Made by a program: the position numbers and the translations under genes. Below are positions 33,615 through 46,039 of a DNA stretch of 64,000 nt, one piece after another (position 1 is the stretch's first letter; each line of letters opens with the position of its first letter). The notes below the pieces were generated by a model. It did no database searches, had not been told where the DNA came from, and saw only the letters and a program-made list of their open reading frames with translations. Origin of the DNA: Chitinolyticbacter meiyuanensis (GTDB taxonomy: Bacteria > Pseudomonadota > Gammaproteobacteria > Burkholderiales > Chitinibacteraceae); contig NZ_CP041335.1 in assembly GCF_008033135.1 (NCBI RefSeq), forward strand, positions 1,493,925 through 1,557,924, read 5' to 3'.

Positions 33615-34211
33615 ATGCGCACCCGTAACGAAACCCTGGCCGATGTCCGCCGTGAACAGATCCTCGCTGCTGCCAAGCGGGTATTCCGGCTGCGCGGTTT
33701 CCACGCTGCGCGCATGGAGGAAATCTGCAAGGAAGCCGAGCTCAGCCCTGGCTCCATGTATCGGCACTTCACCAGCAAGGACGCAATCATCGATGAATTG
33801 GTCGAGCGCGAATTCGATGACTATCTCGCGCTGGTGCGACGCTATCTGGGCAGTGCCGAAGGCATTGCCGCGCTGCTCGATTTCAAGGCGGCTGACCTGG
33901 CCGATTTGCTGCAAGGGGCTCAGGACGATATCGGAGTGGAGAGCTGGGCCGAGATCGCCCGCAATCCCGGTCTGATGCAGCGCGTGGCTGAACGCGACGG
34001 CCAGTTGCGCCGGGAAGTGGTGGACGCGCTGCGCAAGGCGCAGCAGGACGGCCTGATCCGCGCCGACCTGCCTAGCCTCGATGGTCTGGCCAATGTGCTG
34101 TCCGCACTGGTATCCGGGCTGCAGGTCGATTTCCACGTCAATCCCGGCCTGGACCGGGTGGCGACCGCGCGTGCGCTGGCCGATGTGCTGCGCAGCTATC
34201 TGAAGCCCTGA
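33615..34211 (+). CDS. TetR/AcrR family regulator of the adjacent ABC exporter
   Basis: 198 residues. The HTH lies at about 15-60 (REQILAAAKRVFRLRGFHAARMEEICKEAELSPGSMYRHFTSK), and the ligand domain is of the TetR C-terminal type. It precedes the exporter operon by 86 bp in the same direction. Nearly identical GAATATTCC palindromes sit before tetR and before the exporter, so it most likely represses both itself and the pump. Ligand unknown. Confidence 0.88.
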   Translation: MRTRNETLADVRREQILAAAKRVFRLRGFHAARMEEICKEAELSPGSMYRHFTSKDAIIDELVEREFDDYLALVRRYLGSAEGIAALLDFKAADLADLLQGAQDDIGVESWAEIARNPGLMQRVAERDGQLRREVVDALRKAQQDGLIRADLPSLDGLANVLSALVSGLQVDFHVNPGLDRVATARALADVLRSYLKP

Positions 34212-34252
34212 GTCGAGCGGATGACGATGAAAGCCAATGATGCGCTCTTTTT

Positions 34253-34269
34253 GCGAAGGAATATTCCTT
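34253..34269. promoter_or_regulatory. Putative TetR operator, exporter copy
   Basis: Contains the 14-bp perfect palindrome AAGGAATATTCCTT (34256-34269) inside GCGAAGGAATATTCC, 28 bp before the permease ATG. Confidence 0.65.
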
Positions 34270-34297
34270 TTTGCATTGCCTTACGGTGGAGCGGCCG

Positions 34298-35434
34298 ATG
34301 AGCAAGGTGTCGCTGGCTCGGGCTTCGCTGCGCTACGAATGGCGACGTTATCTCGCTGCCGTGCTGGCGGTGACGTTTGCCGGGCTGCTGATCGTAGTAC
34401 AGGTTGCCTTGTTGCTGGGTCTGCTCGGCAGCGTGTCGGCTGTGATCGACCAGTCGGGGGCGCAGGTATGGATCGGCTATCGGGGCACGCAGAGCGTGGA
34501 TCTGGGGCGGGGCATCCTGCCGTCGGCGGATCTCGATGCGCGGTTGCATCCGGCCGTGGCTCGGGTGGAGCCGCTCTATCAGGGTTACGGCGACTGGCGC
34601 CGCGACGATGGCGTGGCGGTGACCGCGGTCATCAATGGCATCGATGCCCGCCCGGATGGCCTGGCCTATGCGCACCTGCTGACGCGCGCGCAGCGTGCGC
34701 TGCTCGATGAGCCGGGTGCAGTGCTGATCGATGTGGCGGATCGCGACAAGCTCAATGCCTACGTCGGTGCACCGGTGGAAATCAACGGCAAGCGGGCGCG
34801 CATCGCCGGTTTTGTCGAAGGCGTGCGCGCGGTGGGCGGTGTGACGGTGCTGATGGGGCAGCCGACCCTGCGGCAGGTGCTGCAGGCGACGCCCGATGCG
34901 CAGGACATCACTTATTTGCTGCTCGCGCTGCGCCCCGGCAGCGATGGCGAGCGGGTGGTCACCGATCTGGCGGGATCGAGCAGCGGGCGCCGCCATTCGC
35001 TGTGGCTGGCCGACGATTTCTCGCTGCAATCGCAGCTCTACTGGTTGTTCGAATCCGGGGCCGGTATCGGCGCCGGCGTCGCATCGCTGCTGGGCTTGGT
35101 GGTCGGGGCGGTGATCACCAGCCAGACACTGGCGTCGGCCATCCTTGCGTCGCTGAAGGAATTCGCCGCCATGCGCGCGCTGGGCGTATCGCGCCAGGCA
35201 CTACGCAACATCGTGCTGGAGCAGGCGTTCTGGATCGGTACCTGCGGCCTTGTGCTGACGGGAGTGCTGTCGCTCGGCATTGGGGTACTGGCGAACTGGG
35301 CACAGGTGCCGATGTTGTTTCCCAGCTGGCTGCTGCTGGGCTGCACCGCGATCATCCTGGCCATTGCCTTGCTGTCGGGCCTGTATGCGCTGCGGCCGCT
35401 GTACAAGGCCGATCCGGCCACGTTGCTGAGGTAG
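34298..35434 (+). CDS. ABC exporter permease (DevC/MacB-FtsX type)
   Basis: 378 residues. TM1 near the N-terminus (YLAAVLAVTFAGLLIVVQVALLLG, about 19-42) is followed by a large periplasmic domain of about 200 residues, then three TM segments in the C-terminal third, including ALGVSRQALRNIVLEQAFWIG. This is the FtsX/MacB/DevC layout with an odd number of domains per chain. TGGAG is 6 bp before ATG 34298. It forms an exporter with the next three genes. Confidence 0.85.
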   Translation: MSKVSLARASLRYEWRRYLAAVLAVTFAGLLIVVQVALLLGLLGSVSAVIDQSGAQVWIGYRGTQSVDLGRGILPSADLDARLHPAVARVEPLYQGYGDWRRDDGVAVTAVINGIDARPDGLAYAHLLTRAQRALLDEPGAVLIDVADRDKLNAYVGAPVEINGKRARIAGFVEGVRAVGGVTVLMGQPTLRQVLQATPDAQDITYLLLALRPGSDGERVVTDLAGSSSGRRHSLWLADDFSLQSQLYWLFESGAGIGAGVASLLGLVVGAVITSQTLASAILASLKEFAAMRALGVSRQALRNIVLEQAFWIGTCGLVLTGVLSLGIGVLANWAQVPMLFPSWLLLGCTAIILAIALLSGLYALRPLYKADPATLLR

Positions 35435-35442
35435 GGGTGCGC

Positions 35443-36174
35443 ATGGCCAAGGTCGTGATCCGGTGCGAGGGCATTGCCAAATCATTCGGCGCGGGCGAGC
35501 TGACCCAGCGAGTGATCCGTGACGCTTCGCTGGCGCTCAATGCCGGTGAGCTCACCCTGATGATGGGGCCATCCGGCTCCGGCAAGAGCACTTTTCTTGC
35601 CATGCTGGCCGGTCTGATGCGGCCCGATCAGGGAACGGTGACGGCGTTGGACAAGGCGCTGTGGCAACTGGACGAGGGCGAGATCGATCGCTTCCGGCTG
35701 CAGCACTGCGGCTTCGTGTTCCAGGGGTTCAACCTGTTTGCCGCGCTCACTGCCGTGGAGAACGTGGTCTTCCCCTTGCAGTACGGCGATCTGCCGCAGG
35801 CCGAAGCCCGCGAGCGGGCCATGGCCGCGCTGGAGGATGTCGGCCTCGCGGCACGGGCGCACTTGCGGCCGATCGAGCTCTCCGGCGGGGAAAAGCAGCG
35901 GGTGGCCATTGCTCGGGCGCTGGTCAAGCACCCCGAACTGATCTTTGCCGATGAGCCGACCAGTGCGCTCGACAGCCACAACGGCGCCATCGTCGTCGAC
36001 CTGCTGCATCGGATTGCCCGTGAGCGTGGTGCCATGGTGCTGGTGGTCACCCACGATCCGCGGCTGCACCAACGTGCGGACCGGCTGATCGAGCTTGAAG
36101 ACGGCCAGATCCGGCGCGACGAGCGCATCCAGCACAACGAAGCTGCCGCCGATGGCGGACAGGAGCACGCATGA
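35443..36174 (+). CDS. ABC exporter ATP-binding protein (DevA/LolD/MacB type)
   Basis: 243 residues. Walker A GPSGSGKST at about 44-52, Q-loop FVFQGFNLF, signature LSGGEKQRVAIARALVKHPE, Walker B LIFADEPTSALDS and His switch VVTHDPR. It is closest to the LolD/MacB/DevA class that works with FtsX-type permeases. It starts 8 bp after the permease and its stop overlaps the next start (ATGA). Confidence 0.92.
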   Translation: MAKVVIRCEGIAKSFGAGELTQRVIRDASLALNAGELTLMMGPSGSGKSTFLAMLAGLMRPDQGTVTALDKALWQLDEGEIDRFRLQHCGFVFQGFNLFAALTAVENVVFPLQYGDLPQAEARERAMAALEDVGLAARAHLRPIELSGGEKQRVAIARALVKHPELIFADEPTSALDSHNGAIVVDLLHRIARERGAMVLVVTHDPRLHQRADRLIELEDGQIRRDERIQHNEAAADGGQEHA

Positions 36175-37088
36175 ACTGGCGGAAACCGACGATATGGGGG
36201 GCAGGCCTGGCGCTGGTCTGCGCCCTGACGGCCATCTGGGCACTGGCGGACCGGGAGCAGCCGGAGTCGGTGGCGAAACCGGCCGAGTTGGGGGCCGTTG
36301 CCCGCGGCCGTGTCGATGTCGAAGGGGGCATCGTCAAGCTGGCGGCCCAGCGCGACGGCGTGATCAAGTCGGTGCCGGTGGGTGAGGGCGACCAGGTCCG
36401 CGCCGGACAGGTGCTGGCGGTGCTGGACGATGAACAGGCCCGCCTGCAGGCCGGTCTCGCTGAAGCCGAGTACCGCGCGGCGCGGGCGGAAACGGCGCCG
36501 TTGCGCGCCAAGCTGACTGCCGCCCGCCGCGAGGTGGAGCGGTTGCAGCAGGCGGTGTCGGCTGAGCTGGCGCCAGGCCAATCTTTGGACACGGCGCGCG
36601 ATGACGTCGCCGCCTTGCAGGCCGAGCTGGGCGTGGTGGATCAGCGTGCGCAGGTGCTGCAGCGCAAGTGGCAGGTGGCCGAGCATGAAGTCTCGCGGCA
36701 TACGGTGCGGGCACCCAGCGATGGCCAGATCGTACGCCGCGACGTGCGGCCCGGCGATGGCGTCAGCACGTTGAACGTCACTCCGTTGTTCCTGTTCGCC
36801 CCGGCCCGGCCCCGTGTGGTGCGCGCCGAATTCGAAGAGCGCTTCATCGCCCAGCTGAAACCTGGTTCACCGGTCGAGATCGCGCTGGAAGTGGATGAGT
36901 CGCGCAAGTTCGCGGGGCGGCTGCTGCGCGTGTCGCCGGCCGTGGGCCTGCGCACGCGCAGCGACGATCCGGCGGAAAAACAGGACGTACGGGTGGTCGA
37001 AGCCGTGGTGGCGCTGCAGGCACCGCAATTGTTGATCGGCCAGCGTGTCATCGTGCGGCTGCCTGCTGCGGCCGGGGCGCCGCGATGA
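36171..37088 (+). CDS. HlyD-type membrane fusion protein of the exporter
   Basis: 305 residues. One N-terminal membrane anchor (about 8-26, IWGAGLALVCALTAIWALA) is followed by a lipoyl half (GIVKLAAQRDGVIKSVPVGEGDQVRAGQVLAVLD), a coiled coil (about 85-165) and the second lipoyl half, whose RAPSDGQIVRRDVRPGDGV is the family motif. It links the ABC pair to the outer-membrane channel. It overlaps both neighbours by 4 nt (ATGA). Confidence 0.88.
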   Translation: MNWRKPTIWGAGLALVCALTAIWALADREQPESVAKPAELGAVARGRVDVEGGIVKLAAQRDGVIKSVPVGEGDQVRAGQVLAVLDDEQARLQAGLAEAEYRAARAETAPLRAKLTAARREVERLQQAVSAELAPGQSLDTARDDVAALQAELGVVDQRAQVLQRKWQVAEHEVSRHTVRAPSDGQIVRRDVRPGDGVSTLNVTPLFLFAPARPRVVRAEFEERFIAQLKPGSPVEIALEVDESRKFAGRLLRVSPAVGLRTRSDDPAEKQDVRVVEAVVALQAPQLLIGQRVIVRLPAAAGAPR

Positions 37089-38485
37089 AGTCCCGCATTG
37101 CCCCGGTGTTGGCGCTGCTGCTCGGCGGCTGCGCCAGCATGGTGAACGAGTCGCCCACCCAGCCACCGGCTGCCCCCGCGGGCTGGCGCAACGCTGCTGC
37201 TGTCACGCCGCTGGCACCGGCGACGCCCTGGTGGCAGGCCTACGGCGATCCTCAACTCGATGCACTGGTCGCCGCGGCGCTCGCTGCGAATGCCGACATC
37301 GCGATCGCTGTCGAGCGCGTGGCCATTGCCCGCGGCCATGCCGGCGTGGCCGACGCATCCGGCATGCTGACGATGCGCGCCGGCGCCGATGTGCAGCGCA
37401 CCCGCGTGCCGCGGCAGCGGGTGTCCGATCTCGACGAGGCGGGTCAGCTGATTTTCTGGGATATCCCCGGCTATGAGGAAAACCGGCGGAACGTCGGCGT
37501 CGCACTGAGCTACGAGCTCGACCTGTTCGGCCGGGTGGCCCGCGCCCGTGCCGCTGGCCAAGCCAGCCTGACGGCGGCCGAGCAGGATGCAGCGGCACTC
37601 CGGCTGTTGATTGCCCGCGAGGTGGTGCTGGCCTACACCGATCTGCGTCTGGCCCAGGTCCGGCTGGCCCTGCTGCAACAGCAACAGGGGCTCGCCGGGC
37701 GCATGCAGCACGACGCCGTGGCGCGCAAGCGGCTCGGCCTCGTGGATCGGCAGGCCGAAACTTCGGCACTGAATCAAGGTGACCGGGTACAGCTGGGCAT
37801 GCTGGCCGAGCGACGGCAGGCGGCCCAGGCCCAGGCTCGGTTGGCCATGCTGCTTGGGCAGGATGCGGCGTCGTTGCCGTTGGCCGATGGGCCGCTGCCA
37901 CAGGCGGTGTTGCAGGTGGCGCCGGACTTGCCCGTCACTGTGCTGGGCCGCCGCCCCGATCTGCTGGCCGCCTGGCAGCAGGTCGAGGTGCAGCGCATCG
38001 GCATCGAGCAGGCGCGCTTGTTGCGCTATCCGCGCATCGCCCTGACCGGCAGTGCCGGCTTTGCCAGCAATGCGCTGGGTTCGTTCCTTGATCACGACTA
38101 CCTGACCTGGGCGCTGGGGGCGGGTGTGGACTGGCTGCTGTTCGATGGCGGGCGTACCGAGGCCGAAGTGGCAACTGCACGGGCGGAACATGCGCTGGCG
38201 ATTGCCCACTATCGCAAGACCATGCTGAACGCGCTGCGTGAGGTCGAGGAGGCCTTGGCCGAATGGCAGCAGGCGCAGCAAGCGCTGCCGCTGCTGACCG
38301 CTGGCGAAGCGCGGGCGCAACGCCTGCTGGACGACGCCGCGGCCAACCAGCGGCTTGGTCGCGCTGATCGGGCGGCCCGGCAGGAGGCGGAACTCGCTTG
38401 GCTGGAGGCCAGGCTGGACGAGGTCGAGGGCCAGGCAGCGCGCTCGCGCAGCTTCGCCCAGCTTAATGCCGCACTTGGCTGGTGA
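37085..38485 (+). CDS. Outer membrane factor (NodT/TolC family efflux lipoprotein)
   Basis: 466 residues. MKSRIAPVLALLLGGCAS is a lipoprotein signal (Cys16). Two OEP repeats follow, with WWQAYGDPQLDALVAAALAANADI at the start and LGRRPDLLAAWQQVEVQRIGI opening the second half, typical of NodT-type channels of tripartite pumps. The last gene of the tetR-permease-ATPase-MFP-OMF unit, coupled by ATGA. It converges with the DUF2147 gene, leaving only 9 bp between stops. Confidence 0.9.
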   Translation: MKSRIAPVLALLLGGCASMVNESPTQPPAAPAGWRNAAAVTPLAPATPWWQAYGDPQLDALVAAALAANADIAIAVERVAIARGHAGVADASGMLTMRAGADVQRTRVPRQRVSDLDEAGQLIFWDIPGYEENRRNVGVALSYELDLFGRVARARAAGQASLTAAEQDAAALRLLIAREVVLAYTDLRLAQVRLALLQQQQGLAGRMQHDAVARKRLGLVDRQAETSALNQGDRVQLGMLAERRQAAQAQARLAMLLGQDAASLPLADGPLPQAVLQVAPDLPVTVLGRRPDLLAAWQQVEVQRIGIEQARLLRYPRIALTGSAGFASNALGSFLDHDYLTWALGAGVDWLLFDGGRTEAEVATARAEHALAIAHYRKTMLNALREVEEALAEWQQAQQALPLLTAGEARAQRLLDDAAANQRLGRADRAARQEAELAWLEARLDEVEGQAARSRSFAQLNAALGW

Positions 38486-38494
38486 GGCTGTCGG

Positions 38495-38923
38495 TCAGGG
38501 GCAGCTTGGCGCCGCACCCTGCCAGGGTTCGAGCACCATGCTCTCCGCCAGCCATTCCGTGCCGACGAAAGCCAGCAGTTTCAGCTTGTCCTGGGTCTGC
38601 TTCAGCGTGGCGCTGTAGCGCTTGGCCGATTCGGGATCGTAGACCCAGCCGCCACGCCAGACGCCGACACCATCGGGCTTGAGATCACCCAACAACGGCT
38701 TGCCGCACCAGGAGGGCGCTTCACGTTGCTGCGTGGCCGAGAGTGTGGCGAGTGTCTTGGCATTGGGCAGCTTGCGCAGCACTGCGCAGAGCGCATCGCC
38801 GTCGCAACGCTTGAACTCGATCACCGAGTCGTCATCGACGAAGCGCCACAGGCCGGCAGGCGCGTCTGCTGCCATGGCCGGAGCGATCAGCGGCACCAGC
38901 AACAGTATCAGAATGGTCTTCAT
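38495..38923 (-). CDS. DUF2147 periplasmic protein
   Basis: 142 residues with the signal peptide MKTILILLLVPLIAPAMAAD. The mature domain GLWRFVDDDSVIEFKRCDGDAL through KPLLGDLKPDGVGVWRGGWVYDPESAKRYSATLK fits DUF2147, whose function is unknown. Start ATG 38923 overlaps the stop of the SMR pump gene as ATGA, so it is coupled to it. Confidence 0.82.
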   Translation of the reverse strand: MKTILILLLVPLIAPAMAADAPAGLWRFVDDDSVIEFKRCDGDALCAVLRKLPNAKTLATLSATQQREAPSWCGKPLLGDLKPDGVGVWRGGWVYDPESAKRYSATLKQTQDKLKLLAFVGTEWLAESMVLEPWQGAAPSCP

Positions 38924-39243
38924 CGGCTGACCCCGCTCAGGTTGAGTCCGGCGATGCCGGCAACGATCAGCAGCAGCGACACGATCTTGCCCGTGGTCGC
39001 CGGCTCCTTGAAATACATCATGCCGATCAGCGCGATCAGCGCGGTGCCGACGCCGGCCCAGATGGCATAGGCCACTGCGATCTCCAGCTGCTTGAGCGCG
39101 AGCGTGATGAAGCCGGCACACAGGCTATAGCAGACGAAGATCAGGATGCTGGGCCAGAGCCGGGTGAAGCCTTCCGACAATTTCATGCTGGTGGTGCCAG
39201 CCACTTCGAACACGATGGCGAGAATCAGGTAGACCCAATGCAT
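38920..39243 (-). CDS. Small multidrug resistance (EmrE-like) transporter
   Basis: 107 residues, four membrane helices. YLILAIVFEVAGTTSMKLSE has the essential TM1 glutamate at position 13 (Glu14 in EmrE), and SEGFTRLWPS and AYAIWAGVGTALIALIG are near-identical to EmrE-type SMR proteins. It is a proton-coupled exporter of cationic compounds. It lies 103 bp after the FAAL-ACP-reductase gene on the same strand, so it could export a polyamine-derived product, but this is inference. Confidence 0.9.
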   Translation of the reverse strand: MHWVYLILAIVFEVAGTTSMKLSEGFTRLWPSILIFVCYSLCAGFITLALKQLEIAVAYAIWAGVGTALIALIGMMYFKEPATTGKIVSLLLIVAGIAGLNLSGVSR

Positions 39244-39313
39244 GCAGACTCCAGACAAGATAAAAGCACAGCCGCATGGCGCGGCTGCAGCAAGGGGGAG
39301 TGTCCGGTGAAGG

Positions 39314-39338
39314 CGGCAGGCGGCACTGCCGCCTGCCG
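39314..39338. terminator. Stem-loop after the FAAL-ACP-reductase gene
   Basis: 11-bp GC stem CGGCAGGCGGC/GCCGCCTGCCG with a 3-nt loop, 9 bp past the stop at 39347. No U-run follows on the - strand, so read-through into the SMR gene is likely. Confidence 0.4.
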
Positions 39339-39346
39339 TGGCGGGA

Positions 39347-42300
39347 TTAGCCGTTGACCGCGAAATCCACGTAGTAGTGGGTGAAGCGGGCATCGCACGG
39401 CGGGCACCAGGCCTTGAACTGCGTCGAGTGGTCGTTCTCGATGTGGCGGAACATCGCATTGAGCTGCTTGTCGAGCTTGGGCGATACCACCGATTTCAGC
39501 AGCTTCACGCTGACGCGGTTGGTCTGGCGGATGTAGTCCTCGTAGCGATCGAGGAATTCAGTCAGCGAGACCAGCTCGATGCGCGGGTGCGTCTTCTTGA
39601 AGTACGTCGCCACATCGCGCCACTTGAGCGGCTCAGGGTTGTAGAAGGTGTAGCTGGTCTTGCGCTCGTCGGCCGGCAGCGTGGTGGTGGTGACGATGGC
39701 CTTGGCGGCATACTCGACCGGGGTGAGGTCGAAATCGGCATCCATGTCGGGGAAGGCACCGATCTGCGGGATCACCGAGAGGAAGTTCTCGAAGGCGTCG
39801 GCGTCGATGATCAGCTCCTCGTCGAGCTCGCCGTAGGCTGCTTCCACCTGCTTCAGCAGTTGGTCGAACGAGGCATTGTCGGGCACGTTCTGCACCCGCA
39901 GGTTATAGAGGTAGCCGAGGCGATAGTTCACCACCGGGTAACCGCGCTCGGCCAGCTCCAGCATGATCTGCTCGACGACGAATTTGCTCTGCGCGTAGCC
40001 GTTGACCAGGCCGACGACCTCGGTGTTCTCTTCCTGCCTTTCCAGCATCGAAACGGCGCAGCTGGAGATATAGAAGATGGGTTTGAGCCGGGTGTGCAGC
40101 GCGAAGTCCAGCACCTCGATCGCGCCCAGCACATTGGTCTTGCGCATCACGCTGTAGGGCAGATAGAAGTTATCGATCGCGGCGCAGTGGTATACGCTGT
40201 CGATCTCGGCGGTGTAGCGCTGGTATTCGGCTTCGGTGAGGCCGAAGCGCGGCTTGGACATGTCGCCGATCATCACCGAGACGCGCGCCTCCCAGCCATC
40301 GGGCAGCGTCAGCGCGTACTTGGCCGAGGTATTGCGGATGCGCTTAAGCGCGGCGGCCTCGTCGGCGGCGCGCACCATGCACACCACGTCGGCATCGGTG
40401 CGCGCAAGGATTTCCTTCAGCAGGGCCACGCCGACGAAGCCCGATGCGCCCGTCAGCAGCGTGCGGCGCCCGACGCTGCCGTCGGAGCTGTGCTTGACCT
40501 TGTCGAGTTTCTCGGCGAGGTAGGCCACCGATTGATCGACTTCCTCGCGCAGCGTGCTGCCTTCGGCGATGCGGCGGTCGAACTGGCTGCGGTCGGTCAT
40601 GCCGACCACGATGTCGTCGATCATCTCGACCACGGTATTGGCGTGGAAGAACGCCACGGTCGGAATGCTGCGCTCCAGCTTCTTTTCCATCTCGGCGTGG
40701 ATGTCGATGATGCTCAGCGAATCGATGCCATAGAAGAAGATCGACTTGTCGATATCGAAATCCGCCATGCGCACCTTGTAGCGCGCAGTGAGGATCTGGG
40801 TGAGCAGGCTGAACACGCGCAGGTGTTCCGGGCCCATGTCGGTGATGCGTTGCAATGCCTTTTCAATGTTGTACATCGGCTGATTCCTTTCCTCTGGGGC
40901 GGTGGGGCTGGCGCTCGGCCATTGCGCGAGTCGCTCGGGGTGTTGCTGCAAGAAACGTTGCTTGCATTCCTGGCGCCGCACCTTGCCGCTGGAGGTCTTG
41001 GGCAATTGCGTGGGCTTGAGGAACACGATGTGATCGACGGCAAGCTCGAAGTGCTGGCTGACCGCGGCGCAGACCTGCTCGGCGACGGCCTCGAGCACCG
41101 CTGGCTCGTTCGCTGCGCGCTGCGCGGTGTCCTTGTCCACCTCGGCGAACAGCACCAGCCGCTCCGAGGTACCGTCGCTGACGCCGAACGCGGCGCTGCC
41201 ATCGCGGCGCAAGGCTGGGTGGCTAGCCTCGATGCACTGCTCGATATCCTGTGGATAGAAGTTGGCGCCGTTGATGATGATGAGGTCCTTGATCCGCCCG
41301 GTGATGAAGAGCTCGCCGGCCTCGTCGACGAAGCCCAGGTCACCGGTACGCAGCTGGTGGCAGATATCGCCGTCCAGCGTGCCGAATGCTTCGGCGTTGG
41401 CTTCCGGGCGCTTGTAGTAGCCGGTCATCACATTGGGGCCGCGGACCCAGATCTCGCCGATCCGGTTGGCGGGCAGCGCTTTGCGTGTCTGCGGATCGAC
41501 GATGCTGAGCTGCTGCAGCAATTTGCTGTGGCCGCAGCCCACCAGCTCGCGCACTTCGTGGCCGTCCCTGGCCGGGCGTGCCACGCCATCGGTGTAGAGC
41601 GTCATCGCGTCGATCCGCCGGTATATCGGCTCGTCGGCGAGGGTGCCGGAGGCGACGAACACCGTGGCCTCGGCCATGCCGTAGGCCGGCAGGAACATCC
41701 GCGGCTCGAAGCCGCTGACCGCGAAGCCGGCGCAGAAGTCACGCACCGTCTGGGCATGGATGGGCTCGGCGGCATTGATTGCCATCTTCAGGCTGGAAAG
41801 ATCGAGCCGCTGCCGCTCCGCTTCGCCGATGCGATCAAGGCAGAGCTGGTAGGCGAAATTGGGCGCACCGGTGTATTGCCCGCGGTAACGGCTGATCGCT
41901 CGCAGCCATTGCACCGGCTGCGCGACGAAGGTGGCGGGGGCCAGCACCACGCAGTGGCTGCCGCAGTAGAAGCTGTGCAGCAGGTGGGCGACGAGACCAA
42001 GGTCGTGGTAGTGCGGCAGCCAGCTGACGAACACCGAATCCGGGCGTGCACCGCTGACCGAGCGGGCCATCTGCAGGTTGTAGAGGCAGGCGTCGTGGCT
42101 GATCATCACGCCCTTGGGCAGCGAGGTCGAGCCCGATGTGAACTGGGTGAAGGCGTGCGCCTCGGCATCGCTGCGAGCGGGCGCAGACCAGTGGGTCGAT
42201 CGGCCATCCACCGTATCGGTGGCGAGAAAGGCGACCTCACTTGGCCAGTCTGCCTCCCGGGTGAGCACCTCGCTCATCCACGCCAGCGTGCCGACGCTGC

Positions 42301-42655
42301 TCAGCACCAGTGCGGCATCGGAGGCGGCCACCATCTGCGCCAGCCGCGCGTTGGGGCGATTGCGCTTGGGCAGCGGCACCGGTGCGGCGACGAGCCCGGC
42401 ATACATGCAGCCAAAGAAGGCCACCATGAAGTCGACCCCGGCGGGATACGCCAGGATCACGTGTCGCCCCGGTGTAGCCATCGTGCGCAGTACTGCGGCC
42501 ACGGCCTGGGCCCGGCTGGCGAGCTGGCCGTAGCTGATGCTGTCGACTTCGGCCCCTTCGCCATCCAGCTCGGTATAGGCCTTGCGCCGGGGCTGCTGCT
42601 CGGCCCAGTAGGACAGGACCTCGTCCAGCCGGGCCATGTTGCCATGCTGATCCAT
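39347..42655 (-). CDS. FAAL-ACP-thioester reductase megasynthetase
   Basis: 1102 residues in three domains. (1) Fatty acyl-AMP ligase, about 1-585: P-loop FTSGSTSLPKG at 172-182, LPAYGMAEATVFVA, and GRIKDLIIINGANFYPQDIE at about 451-470, the FAAL version of the A8 region. (2) Acyl carrier protein, about 600-680, with phosphopantetheine Ser646 in FYGIDSLS. (3) NADPH thioester reductase, about 715-1102, with TGASGFVG at 725-732 and Tyr887/Lys891 in YAQSK. The enzyme should activate a fatty acid, load it on the ACP and release it as an aldehyde or alcohol. The stop of hss is 18 bp upstream. The carboxylic acid reductase family has the same order but a different adenylation domain. Confidence 0.9.
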   Translation of the reverse strand: MDQHGNMARLDEVLSYWAEQQPRRKAYTELDGEGAEVDSISYGQLASRAQAVAAVLRTMATPGRHVILAYPAGVDFMVAFFGCMYAGLVAAPVPLPKRNRPNARLAQMVAASDAALVLSSVGTLAWMSEVLTREADWPSEVAFLATDTVDGRSTHWSAPARSDAEAHAFTQFTSGSTSLPKGVMISHDACLYNLQMARSVSGARPDSVFVSWLPHYHDLGLVAHLLHSFYCGSHCVVLAPATFVAQPVQWLRAISRYRGQYTGAPNFAYQLCLDRIGEAERQRLDLSSLKMAINAAEPIHAQTVRDFCAGFAVSGFEPRMFLPAYGMAEATVFVASGTLADEPIYRRIDAMTLYTDGVARPARDGHEVRELVGCGHSKLLQQLSIVDPQTRKALPANRIGEIWVRGPNVMTGYYKRPEANAEAFGTLDGDICHQLRTGDLGFVDEAGELFITGRIKDLIIINGANFYPQDIEQCIEASHPALRRDGSAAFGVSDGTSERLVLFAEVDKDTAQRAANEPAVLEAVAEQVCAAVSQHFELAVDHIVFLKPTQLPKTSSGKVRRQECKQRFLQQHPERLAQWPSASPTAPEERNQPMYNIEKALQRITDMGPEHLRVFSLLTQILTARYKVRMADFDIDKSIFFYGIDSLSIIDIHAEMEKKLERSIPTVAFFHANTVVEMIDDIVVGMTDRSQFDRRIAEGSTLREEVDQSVAYLAEKLDKVKHSSDGSVGRRTLLTGASGFVGVALLKEILARTDADVVCMVRAADEAAALKRIRNTSAKYALTLPDGWEARVSVMIGDMSKPRFGLTEAEYQRYTAEIDSVYHCAAIDNFYLPYSVMRKTNVLGAIEVLDFALHTRLKPIFYISSCAVSMLERQEENTEVVGLVNGYAQSKFVVEQIMLELAERGYPVVNYRLGYLYNLRVQNVPDNASFDQLLKQVEAAYGELDEELIIDADAFENFLSVIPQIGAFPDMDADFDLTPVEYAAKAIVTTTTLPADERKTSYTFYNPEPLKWRDVATYFKKTHPRIELVSLTEFLDRYEDYIRQTNRVSVKLLKSVVSPKLDKQLNAMFRHIENDHSTQFKAWCPPCDARFTHYYVDFAVNG

Positions 42656-42673
42656 GATGTGCGGGCTCCCTGA

Positions 42674-44083
42674 TCAAACTCTGAAGTTCTTGAATTGCCA
42701 CGGGTCGGTGTGATCGACCTCTTCGGGGAAGATCCAGCCTCGCCCCTGCAGCGGATTCCAGCTGGTGTAGGCACCGACCAGTTCGCCAAGGTAAGGCCGG
42801 CAGAAGGCGATGATCTCGTCGTGCGGCAGGTCTTCCGGCTCGACGATGCCCTGGTTCGGGTGACGAATCGCCCAGTCCATGGCGGCGACCACGGCGGAGG
42901 TCACCTGCAGGCTGGTGGCGCCGTTGTGCGGCGCCAGCCGGCGTGCTTCCGCGATATCGAGGCGTGAGCCATACCAATAGCCGCCCCAGGCGTGCCCGAG
43001 CAGCAGCACGCCCAGTTCGTCATGGCCATGTTCGATCTCTTCCTTGACCAGCTTGACCCGTGATTGCAGCTGCCAGTTGCGGCCGGCCAACTCGTGCAGC
43101 GACAGCACTGCGTCGTCGCACGGGTGATAGGCGTAGTACACGGTCGGGCGGTATTCCGGCGCCTCGCCGTTGCCGACGGTGAGGTAATCGGCGATCGAGA
43201 TTGCTTCGCTGTGGGTGATCAAGAACCCATGGTAGGCGCCGGCCTGGGGTGTCCAGCTGCGCACGCGGGTCGCGGCGCCCGGCTGGTTGAGGTAGATGGC
43301 CGAGCGGCAGCCATGTGGATGGCGCTGGCCATCGTGCGGGAAATGCTGCTCATGGCTGCCCCAGCCGAGTTCGGCCGGCTGGCAGCCCTCGCCGACAAAG
43401 CCTTCCACTGACCAGGTATTGATGAATTCATCGGGTTGCTTGCGCGAGTGCGTCTGCTGGAAATCCCGTTCCGCCACCTGGATCACGCGGATGCCGAGAT
43501 GCCGCGCCAGTTGTGCCCAGCCTGCCCGGTCACTGGGCGGGTAGATTTTCTGGTGACCGGCGTCGGCCAGATCCATCAGCGCCTGTTTGACAAAGTGCGA
43601 GACCAGTCCGGGATTGGCGCCATGGGTCAATACGCTGGTGGGGCCATTGCGAAAATCCTTGCGCAGCGTCAGCACCTGTTCGCGCAATGCGTAATTACTG
43701 CGTGCCTGCGGCGAGACACGCGTATCGGTGTAGCCGCCTGCCCAAGGCTCAATGCAGGTGTCGATATACATTGCCCCCAATCGTTGGCAAAGCTCAATCA
43801 AGGAGAAACTGGCGACGTCATTGGAAACGTTCACCAGGAAATCCCCTTGGTCCATCATGGGGGTCAATACCTGGCGGTAATTGACTTCGGTCAATTCAAT
43901 CACGGAAAGACGTATTCCGTATTGGGCAGCGACTTCGCTGCCTTCATGATCGGCAGCCACGATATGGAGCTGCGAAGGTTTGAGTTGGAAATGCCTGAGC
44001 AATAACGGAAGTACGCCTTGCCCTATCGATCCGAAGCCGATGATGAGGACTTTTCCGGGGAATTCACGGTGAGTTTCGATCAT
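42674..44083 (-). CDS. hss: Homospermidine synthase
   Basis: 469 residues. It makes sym-homospermidine from two putrescines (or putrescine and spermidine) using NAD as a hydride shuttle. The Rossmann start KVLIIGFGSIGQGVLPLLL, then VNVSNDVASFSLIELC, YIDTCIEPWAGGY and LTHGANPGLVSHFVKQAL are characteristic of the bacterial Hss family (saccharopine-dehydrogenase fold). ATG 44083 gives the expected N-terminus; the longer frame to 44254 lacks homology. First gene of the cluster with the FAAL-ACP-reductase, preceded by a low-GC region with palindromes. Confidence 0.92.
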   Translation of the reverse strand: MIETHREFPGKVLIIGFGSIGQGVLPLLLRHFQLKPSQLHIVAADHEGSEVAAQYGIRLSVIELTEVNYRQVLTPMMDQGDFLVNVSNDVASFSLIELCQRLGAMYIDTCIEPWAGGYTDTRVSPQARSNYALREQVLTLRKDFRNGPTSVLTHGANPGLVSHFVKQALMDLADAGHQKIYPPSDRAGWAQLARHLGIRVIQVAERDFQQTHSRKQPDEFINTWSVEGFVGEGCQPAELGWGSHEQHFPHDGQRHPHGCRSAIYLNQPGAATRVRSWTPQAGAYHGFLITHSEAISIADYLTVGNGEAPEYRPTVYYAYHPCDDAVLSLHELAGRNWQLQSRVKLVKEEIEHGHDELGVLLLGHAWGGYWYGSRLDIAEARRLAPHNGATSLQVTSAVVAAMDWAIRHPNQGIVEPEDLPHDEIIAFCRPYLGELVGAYTSWNPLQGRGWIFPEEVDHTDPWQFKNFRV

Positions 44084-45125: not shown

Positions 45126-45587
45126 GTGGCCCAGAACGCGATCCGCCTCGCCCGGCGTGGCGAGCCCGATGAAGCCAGCACGTTCCGCCTGCTGTCGAGC
45201 GAGCTGGCCCAGGCTTCGCCCGCCCGGCGCATTGCGCTGATCCGGGAAGGCATGCCGGCCGAGGTGGTGCAGGGCATCTCGGATGAGTTCGACATCCCGA
45301 AGCAGGCGGTCTACGGCGTATTGCACCTGCCGGCCTCGACCGCAGCGCGGCTGGCCAAGGAAAACAAGACGCTGGGCGTGGCCGAGAGCGAGCGCGTGGC
45401 GCGCATCGCCGAGATCACCGATCGCGCGATCCAGGCTTTTGGCGATGCGGCGCAAGCCAAGCGTTGGCTGACGCAGCCGTCGCGCGCCTTCAACGGGGCG
45501 ACGCCGTTTTCGCTGCTCGATACCGAGATCGGCGCGCAGGAAGTGCGCCGGGTGCTGGTGACCATCCAGTATGGGGGCGTGTTTTGA
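45126..45587 (+). CDS. Xre/MbcA/ParS-type antitoxin (RES toxin partner)
   Basis: 153 residues. The N-terminal part is Xre-like HTH (EVVQGISDEFDIPKQAVYGVLHLP), and the C-terminal DUF2384 domain AKRWLTQPSRAFNGATPFSLLDTEIGAQEV is the toxin-binding antitoxin domain of RES/Xre systems. GTG start at 45126 with a perfect AAGGAGG 5 bp upstream. It overlaps the toxin start by 4 nt. Confidence 0.9.
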   Translation: MAQNAIRLARRGEPDEASTFRLLSSELAQASPARRIALIREGMPAEVVQGISDEFDIPKQAVYGVLHLPASTAARLAKENKTLGVAESERVARIAEITDRAIQAFGDAAQAKRWLTQPSRAFNGATPFSLLDTEIGAQEVRRVLVTIQYGGVF

Positions 45588-46039
45588 GGGCTTGGCGTAT
45601 CGCCCGCGCCGCCTACGCCACCGATCTGTCCGGCTATGGCGCCGCGCTGGAAGGCGGCCGCTGGAATCATCGCGATGTGCCCGCCGTCTATGCCGCGACC
45701 AGCCGGGCGTTGTGTGCGCTGGAGGTGCTGGCCCATCTGCCCGAGCCCGGCCTGATGCCGCGCGACTATCAACTTGTGGTGATTGATCTGCCGGACGATG
45801 CGGCGCTCTACACCACGGTGACGCCGCCGCCAGACTGGGATGCGGTCCCGCCCAGCGATGCCAGTCGCGAGGTCGGTACGCGCTGGCTGCGCGAGGCCGG
45901 GCAGGTTGGACTCTATGTGCCGTCGGTCATCGTGCCGCTTGAGGCCAACCTGATGCTGAATCCGACACAACTGGCCGCCCATGGCGTGAACGCGCGCATC
46001 GAAGCGCCGTTCGATTTCGATGCGCGCCTGCTGAAGTAG
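45584..46039 (+). CDS. RES-domain NAD+ phosphorylase toxin
   Basis: 151 residues. RAWRIARAAYATDLSGYGAALEGGRWNHRDVPAVYAA is the RES signature with the conserved Arg, Gly-Gly-Arg-Trp-Asn and Tyr. Characterised members (MbcT, Res) destroy NAD+ by phosphorolysis. The start is taken as TTG 45584 in the TTGA overlap with the antitoxin stop, preceded by GGGGG. No ATG is available near, so expression is likely coupled and low. Confidence 0.88.
   Translation: MRAWRIARAAYATDLSGYGAALEGGRWNHRDVPAVYAATSRALCALEVLAHLPEPGLMPRDYQLVVIDLPDDAALYTTVTPPPDWDAVPPSDASREVGTRWLREAGQVGLYVPSVIVPLEANLMLNPTQLAAHGVNARIEAPFDFDARLLK

Follow-up and report, generated by a model that had tools for sequence, protein, structure and literature searches.

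A nine-gene block in the chitin-degrading bacterium Chitinolyticbacter meiyuanensis (Burkholderiales, Chitinibacteraceae) places a homospermidine synthase gene (hss) directly before a gene for a fused fatty acyl-AMP ligase, acyl carrier protein and thioester reductase (FAAL-ACP-TR), opposite a convergent set of exporter genes, and this arrangement is conserved in three genomes belonging to two genera. We studied the block within a 64,000-nucleotide stretch of the genome (NZ_CP041335.1, positions 1,493,925 to 1,557,924; hereafter the window, in whose numbering coordinates are given); the genome itself is 4.33 Mb on a single contig. We put at roughly 55% the probability that the block encodes, on its own, a route to a homospermidine lipid and its export, in which lipid and polyamine genes function jointly and modules of nonribosomal peptide synthetase (NRPS) or polyketide synthase (PKS) type are not required. 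The features of the block are as follows.

42674-44083, minus strand: hss, homospermidine synthase (HSS), 469 aa; Pfam Sacchrp_dh_NADP and Sacchrp_dh_C over cut-offs
39347-42655, minus strand: FAAL-ACP-TR, 1102 aa; Pfam AMP-binding, PP-binding and NAD_binding_4, with further matches in NCBIfam and PDB
39244-39346, minus strand: FAAL-SMR spacer; GC-rich hairpins in all three block genomes; possible terminator or processing site
38920-39243, minus strand: small multidrug transporter of the SMR family (EmrE/Qac-like), 107 aa; PF00893 Multi_Drug_Res, 98.7 bits
38495-38923, minus strand: DUF2147 protein, 142 aa; PF09917, 55.5 bits
37085-38485, plus strand: outer-membrane efflux channel (OEP); PF02321; TIGR01845, 198.5 bits, just below the cut-off of 210.05
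36171-37088, plus strand: HlyD/RND-type periplasmic adaptor; PF13437 and PF16576; TIGR01730, 96.5 bits against a cut-off of 94.9
35443-36174, plus strand: DevA/LolD/MacB-like ABC ATPase, 243 aa; TIGR02982, 228.7 bits, below the cut-off of 295.8
34298-35434, plus strand: FtsX/MacB-type, DevC-like permease, 378 aa; PF02687 and PF12704; TIGR01185, 57.8 bits, below the cut-off of 290.35
33615-34211, plus strand: TetR-family regulator, 198 aa; PF00440; the last gene of the block shared with the second genus

The coordinates confirm what a first-pass annotation of the window had described, namely that the hss stop codon lies 18 bp from the FAAL-ACP-TR start and that the SMR and DUF2147 genes stand behind the pair on one strand, and the domain assignments of these four genes hold with Pfam matches over cut-offs. 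The description of a two-gene system was too small, however: the conserved unit comprises nine genes, including five (TetR, permease, ATPase, HlyD and OEP; 33615-38485, plus strand) that converge on the four minus-strand genes.

Conservation and distribution of the block

The four minus-strand genes occur in the same order in a second Chitinolyticbacter genome (G001) and in a genome of another genus (G022). Identities to the window proteins HSS, FAAL-ACP-TR, SMR and DUF2147 are 89, 86, 91 and 72%, respectively, in G001 and 76, 78, 78 and 57% in G022, with a gap between hss and the FAAL gene of 18 bp and 14 bp. In tblastn searches all nine genes, from hss to DUF2147 and across the convergent OEP, HlyD, ATPase, permease and TetR genes, kept their order and orientation in both genomes, with the TetR gene in place at 88% (G001) and 75% (G022) identity. 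None of the window neighbours tested by tblastn was found in the 8.4 kb beyond hss in G022, nor was any found in the 15 kb beyond tetR, general ABC-ATPase similarity aside, and the block is therefore bounded at nine genes. The hss and FAAL-ACP-TR pair, which might have been a peculiarity of one strain, is carried as part of the block by three genomes in two genera, and the neighbourhood is not a chance one.

Across the family, three components of the block (hss, full-length FAAL-ACP-TR and the permease) were found strictly together. The HSS profile matched three of 43 family genomes (1e-30) and the permease likewise three (1e-20), the same genomes in both cases, while full-length FAAL-ACP-TR was confined to the window genome, G001 and G022 among 100 genomes that include all 43 (up to seven candidates scored per genome). 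None of the three is present in G003 and G013, which are of the same genus as G022. Drawing the identical three of 43 freely twice has a chance of 1 in 12341, a figure of our own arithmetic that ignores kinship: two of the three genomes are congeners, and the count is properly one of two lineages. This strict co-occurrence, together with the grouping of the exporter with zeamine-type exporters (see below), supports the joint lipid-plus-polyamine function that was proposed when the pair was first noticed.

Searches in wider samples returned few comparable proteins. An ACP-TR profile at 1e-40 matched one of 321 genomes sampled from the class and one of 349 sampled from the phylum, in both cases the window genome (up to four candidates scored per genome). 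In a sample of the order (n = 399; two candidates scored per genome), the profile of the whole FAAL-ACP-TR found a full-length match in the window genome and G022 only; at 1e-100 it matched 32 genomes, all besides these two through the FAAL or FAAL-ACP part. Two short peptide patterns compared with genome contigs (258 stretches) recovered a single locus, in C. albus (NZ_JANBVF010000001.1). Among plasmids, 136 records matched the ACP-TR part, nine of them over at least 80% of it and all at less than 60% identity (26-30% among the matches listed), and 159 records matched the whole protein (1e-60), none covering 80%.

The hss gene was found in 61 of the 399 genomes of the order. We examined 49 of the 60 other hss places (leaving out those in G093, G165, G334, G053, G191, G277, G071, G403, G377, G122 and G342), several of which end at contig ends. 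AMP ligases near 11 of these 49 genes (24-29% identity; ten divergent and one, L099, on the same strand) were rejected as equivalents of the FAAL. On plasmids, hss matched 42 records at 1e-30, and four regions were opened: an hss-like gene (37% identity) lies within an NRPS cluster on Alteromonas mediterranea pAMDE1 (L179, 20433-21857), and hss was not within such a cluster on the Legionella, Pseudomonas and Leisingera records. On the Pseudomonas aeruginosa plasmid (L182), hss is accompanied by genes for an EamA transporter and a GNAT, adjoining a Tn3-family transposase. For one Klebsiella plasmid match (H2), the gene table, which is incomplete, lists no hss.

The two biosynthetic enzymes

The window HSS aligns over its full length (from residue 6-9 to residue 467-469) with solved homospermidine synthases, with a best E of 1.2e-160, and carries the two saccharopine-dehydrogenase-like domains PF03435 and PF16653 over cut-off. 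Seven residues described as important in the Blastochloris viridis enzyme (E117, N162, E210, W229, E237, H296 and E298, in the available text of PMC8489232) have as counterparts, read off the alignment, E112, N157, E205, W224, E232, H291 and E293. All seven are identical in the three block copies and in all 47 other copies from the order, a comparison set from which two divergent sequences (L132 and L133) had been excluded beforehand; the less important D94 (B. viridis numbering) is present in the three block copies and in 39 of the 47 others. Because these catalytic residues are kept, the window enzyme is expected to make ordinary homospermidine. A specialised pocket was considered and rejected, since position 388 alone (Gly for Asn) is invariant in the three copies while differing from 90% or more of the 47 others.

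The HSS proteins of the three block genomes cluster together with 100/100 support. Identity to the window copy is 89% in G001 and 76% in G022, close to or lower than the 88% and 83% of control proteins of LysA size, and there is therefore no sign of recent transfer between genera. Since hss gives a single match in the window genome and was not found in the 40 other family genomes, it does not belong to the core polyamine metabolism of the family. A core role was also rejected on the distribution of PF02784, which has one match in nine of ten genomes and two in G006; the single matches are labelled LysA by size only, and fold-I ornithine decarboxylases were not searched. In the window genome, PF01564 has only weak matches (42.9 and 42.0 bits).

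The FAAL-ACP-TR protein consists of a FAAL part (about residues 5-579), an ACP (residues 618-680, with Ser646 in a GIDS motif) and a TR from residue 731. Against NCBIfam, a 4334-position NRPS/PKS model came first, followed by FAAL models (NF004509, 403.8 bits; NF006624, 363.8 bits; NF009124, 342.4 bits), and the best models named as acyl-CoA ligases reached 305.4 bits (NF005850) and 177.5 bits (NF004837). All FAAL and acyl-CoA ligase models stayed below their curated cut-offs; by these scores, the adenylation part is nearer the FAAL models than those of acyl-CoA ligases. Its two best matches in the PDB, a polyketide synthase and saframycin synthetase B, are ones we take to be FAAL domains, and the third is the fatty-acid-AMP ligase FadD23. 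Elsewhere in the genome, at about 26-53 kb of the contig, a run of NRPS-sized open frames holds many AMP-binding domains, one of which (51.6-53.3 kb) is again FAAL-like.

In the TR, all three genomes preserve the nucleotide-binding motif TGASGFVG and the Tyr-Lys motif YAQSK, G022 having one conservative difference at the start of the Tyr-Lys helix. A CPPC motif at the end of the TR (residues 1084-1087) is likewise invariant in the three. Structures predicted from two sequences each were too poor for structure search (predicted local distance difference test scores of 42.2 for the TR and 60.4 for DUF2147).

These intact motifs bear on one alternative, in which homospermidine intercepts the acyl-AMP or acyl-ACP to form an N-acyl homospermidine (an amide) and the reductase is idle or serves in editing. 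Amines attack thioesters and acyl adenylates by established chemistry, and acyl polyamines are common natural products. Motifs that are invariant in three genomes would nevertheless lack an explanation if the reductase were dispensable, and Pfam finds neither a condensation domain nor a GNAT domain in the block; we regard an amide product as improbable.

The solved structure nearest to the TR is MxaA. Window Gly914 aligns with an Asp at position 998 of the chain of a solved carboxylic acid reductase (CAR; 5msp), and we take the Asp of the CAR rule discussed next to be Asp998 of the Segniliparus enzyme. Gly occupies the same position in MxaA and in two zeamine-type reductases, and Asp occupies it in the solved PKS reductase 8v1x. 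A single Asp change in CARs leads to alcohol (described in part of PMC8124467), and an aldehyde is proposed as the product of the zeamine reductase (in the accessible text of PMC3547906). Gly914 is compatible with release of either aldehyde or alcohol and is not decisive.

The exporter and its relatives

In NCBIfam the permease and ATPase are nearest DevC and DevA, respectively, both at the sub-cut-off scores listed above. At 1e-50 the permease had nine matches in 250 genomes of the order, the window genome and G022 included; the seven others are G073, G117, G172, G241, G209, G260 and G226. In G073 and G117, which belong to one genus, the permease adjoins an outer-membrane channel and three further frames, of 242 aa (in G073 a phosphopantetheinyl transferase), 342 aa and, at PKS size, ~2250 aa. 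Over the next 40 kb of G073 (L154, L160, L162), frame sizes match zmn10-zmn18 and zmn20 in the available rows of the published zeamine table (PMC3547906), and the frames scanned each hold the expected domains, including a PfaD-like/aminotransferase fusion, a stand-alone reductase, NRPS and PKS. G073 departs from these rows in an extra 233-aa frame, in a frame of 563 aa in place of zmn19 (439), and in the channel, which does not figure in them. G117 (L155, L161) was compared by sizes alone, over 20 kb, and the term zeamine-type for both genomes is our own label, given on frame sizes and, in G073, on domains.

A permease tree (14 rows, midpoint root) placed the window clade, G226 and the zeamine-type pair together with 98/95 support. 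Of 21 plasmid records, four were used in this tree; it leaves out 16 others as well as the permease of Xanthomonas sacchari, which is in two pieces and lacks a gene annotation. The nearest relative is the permease of G226, at 55% identity. The grouping with the zeamine-type pair is the best independent hint that the exporter may carry a long-chain polyamine.

Other relatives of the exporter stand in varied surroundings, and four of six plasmid regions opened around them hold lipid, polyketide or acyl-amine-like gene sets. In G172, G241 and G209 (L157, L158, L159), the exporter relative adjoins the whole or part of a set of genes for a class-III aminotransferase, an arginase-family hydrolase, an MtnX-like phosphatase, a GNAT, an alpha/beta hydrolase and two small EamA transporters. 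The set also occurs, whole or in part, on Agrobacterium (L143, L145) and Xanthomonas sacchari (L144) plasmids, and it looks like a pathway for an N-acyl amine or guanidine lipid. On a plasmid of Methylosinus sp. C49 (L180), an exporter relative lies beside genes for a FAAL-like AMP-binding protein, a phosphopantetheinyl transferase and two type I PKSs. The G260 region gave matches to the exporter genes only.

The DUF2147 protein, whose N-terminus resembles a signal peptide by eye, matched nothing in the PDB at E 1 or among plasmids at 1e-5, though on the Phyllobacterium plasmid a gene annotated as DUF2147 precedes the exporter relative by 2.9 kb. Next to the block on its hss side, the plus-strand stretch 45126-46039 holds a gene for an antitoxin of Xre/MbcA/ParS type (Pfam) and after it a gene that, judged from its position, is presumably for a RES-like toxin; the stretch is kept in G001 and has no match in the G022 region.

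Proposed pathway and comparison with known systems

We infer the substrates, the chemistry of the link and the exported compound from the genes. HSS would convert two putrescines to sym-homospermidine, as its conserved active site suggests, while the domains and motifs of FAAL-ACP-TR suggest that a free fatty acid would be activated to acyl-AMP, loaded on the fused ACP and released reductively by the TR with NAD(P)H. An aldehyde released in this way could form an imine with a primary amine of homospermidine, and reduction would give an N-alkyl homospermidine; an ether or ester link by way of the alcohol is our second choice. The cationic, soap-like lipid would then cross the envelope by way of the TetR-linked, DevBCA/MacAB-like ABC exporter and the outer-membrane channel encoded with it, perhaps with help from the SMR pump and DUF2147 protein. 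We offer a more specific version only tentatively: a minimal, assembly-line-free route in which FAAL-ACP-TR would pass its aldehyde to homospermidine, or into the active site of HSS, whose normal chemistry is Schiff base formation and reduction, and in which the zeamine-type exporter would secrete N-alkyl homospermidines, independently of, or only in convergence with, the Myxococcus pathway.

Several observations weigh against an exported homospermidine lipid. No product is known from the block organisms, the three block genomes represent two lineages only (two are congeners), and FAAL-ACP-TR is absent from all 49 other hss neighbourhoods examined. Gly914 allows release of an alcohol, for which an amine is not needed, and neither an imine reductase nor an acyltransferase domain was found among the block proteins with Pfam and NCBIfam. 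The aldehyde release and imine step of the first-pass annotation are still hypothetical, given Gly in place of the CAR Asp and the lack of a dedicated imine reductase in the block. The two enzymes might serve separate functions, yielding free homospermidine and a CAR-like fatty alcohol or aldehyde that are joined only by regulation or export. Gly914, as in MxaA, fits an alcohol under the Asp rule cited above, with the residue number as we presume it; the block holds no coupling enzyme; and HSS, with one distinctive position only, is not specialised. Separate functions would leave unexplained, however, the gap of 14-18 bp and the strict co-occurrence in two lineages, sit poorly with the failure to find hss in 40 other family genomes, and make a zeamine-type exporter an odd companion for free homospermidine or a plain alcohol. 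We consider this account unlikely.

Transcription also counts against a fully unified set. The FAAL-SMR spacer (~100 bp) is structured in all three genomes, with folds of -51.6 (window), -55.5 (G001) and -60.3 kcal/mol (G022), z-scores against dinucleotide shuffles of -4.2, -3.1 and -3.3, and 1, 0 and 1 of 200 shuffles folding as well, so that the four genes may not all share one transcript. A terminator-like T-rich tail is present in the window copy only, the other hairpins having no T run by eye; the terminator scan that gave it overall found five against a shuffle mean of 6.8 and hence no excess. Because their genes overlap by 4 bases, SMR and DUF2147 form a pair, one that may be transcribed apart from hss and the FAAL gene. 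Both nevertheless keep their place with the biosynthetic pair in all three genomes.

The exporter raises a further objection. In G226 it occurs with a TetR gene and a DUF2147-like gene (36% identity; not called by Pfam at 1e-5) and with no FAAL, HSS, PKS or NRPS in 19.9 kb, and it could therefore be a plain efflux pump; the Phyllobacterium and Azospirillum plasmids (two of the six regions) and G260 also lack lipid, polyketide or acyl-amine-like gene sets. The G226 surroundings, along with the SMR and TetR genes typical of efflux, would suit a resistance or efflux island whose exporter and SMR pump clear cationic amphiphiles from the cell, with the biosynthetic pair carried along as a passenger. 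Within the family, however, the permease and the pair are never apart (three of 43 each), and we judge a resistance island still less probable than the amide.

If an exported homospermidine lipid is indeed made, two enzymes and an exporter would replace the very large zeamine-type machinery for antimicrobial lipid polyamines, providing a compact system for in vitro reconstitution of the joining of polyamines to fatty chains. Homospermidine lipids would extend beyond myxobacteria, and hss would have a role outside core polyamine metabolism. Through the exporter link, the transporter could also serve as a handle for finding more clusters of lipid-polyamine type.

The arrangement first noted is thus real, is conserved and extends further than described, and its novelty is limited by compounds of Myxococcus. 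Homospermidine lipids of Myxococcus xanthus were reportedly described by Hoffmann et al. in 2018 (ACS Chem Biol 13:273-280). The compound class is thus known already, and the present gene arrangement was not met in the literature searched, where homospermidine synthase was not found together with a fatty acyl-AMP ligase or thioester reductase. The first-pass term "undescribed" was accordingly too strong. According to the available text of PMC9548883, the M. xanthus lipids are bioactive, are assigned to a cluster hslA-D and hslO-Q with a proposed origin from arginine by way of putrescine, and likely involve the ether-lipid genes MXAN_1675 and MXAN_1676; passages of PMC10196010 and PMC12288465 mention them too. 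What M. xanthus DK1622 shares with the window is a modified homospermidine termed a lipid, our product being predicted from genes alone; it belongs to a different phylum, and the likeness drawn here is one of compound class.

Other systems resemble the block in single parts. CARs share the adenylation-carrier-reductase architecture and reductive release of the window protein, which differs in its FAAL-type adenylation part, in Gly for Asp and in scoring 134.8 bits on NF041592 against a cut-off of 1300. The heterocyst glycolipid system (PMC8064123, in the text available) pairs an ACP-TR protein for a lipid chain (HglB) with a DevBCA exporter, but its products are glycolipids with PKS-derived aglycones, and neither the permease nor the ATPase of the window reaches the cut-off of its DevC or DevA model. 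The pAMDE1 plasmid of Alteromonas mediterranea likewise holds an hss-like gene in a biosynthetic cluster, one that is NRPS-based.

The zeamine system of Serratia plymuthica (zmn; the available part of PMC3547906) is alike in its long-chain polyamine and terminal thioester reductase, although the window TR has only 29% identity to the zeamine-type TR of G073. Zeamine builds its chain and amines with a PUFA-type (polyunsaturated fatty acid) synthase bearing an aminotransferase domain, together with NRPS and PKS; neither a synthase of this type nor an NRPS is among the block proteins scanned. Unlike the window block, rows zmn4-zmn23 of its table contain no homospermidine synthase. The HlyD-ATPase-permease exporter of zmn6-8 is similar in size to that of the window and, judged through the two look-alike clusters, may belong to the same clade.

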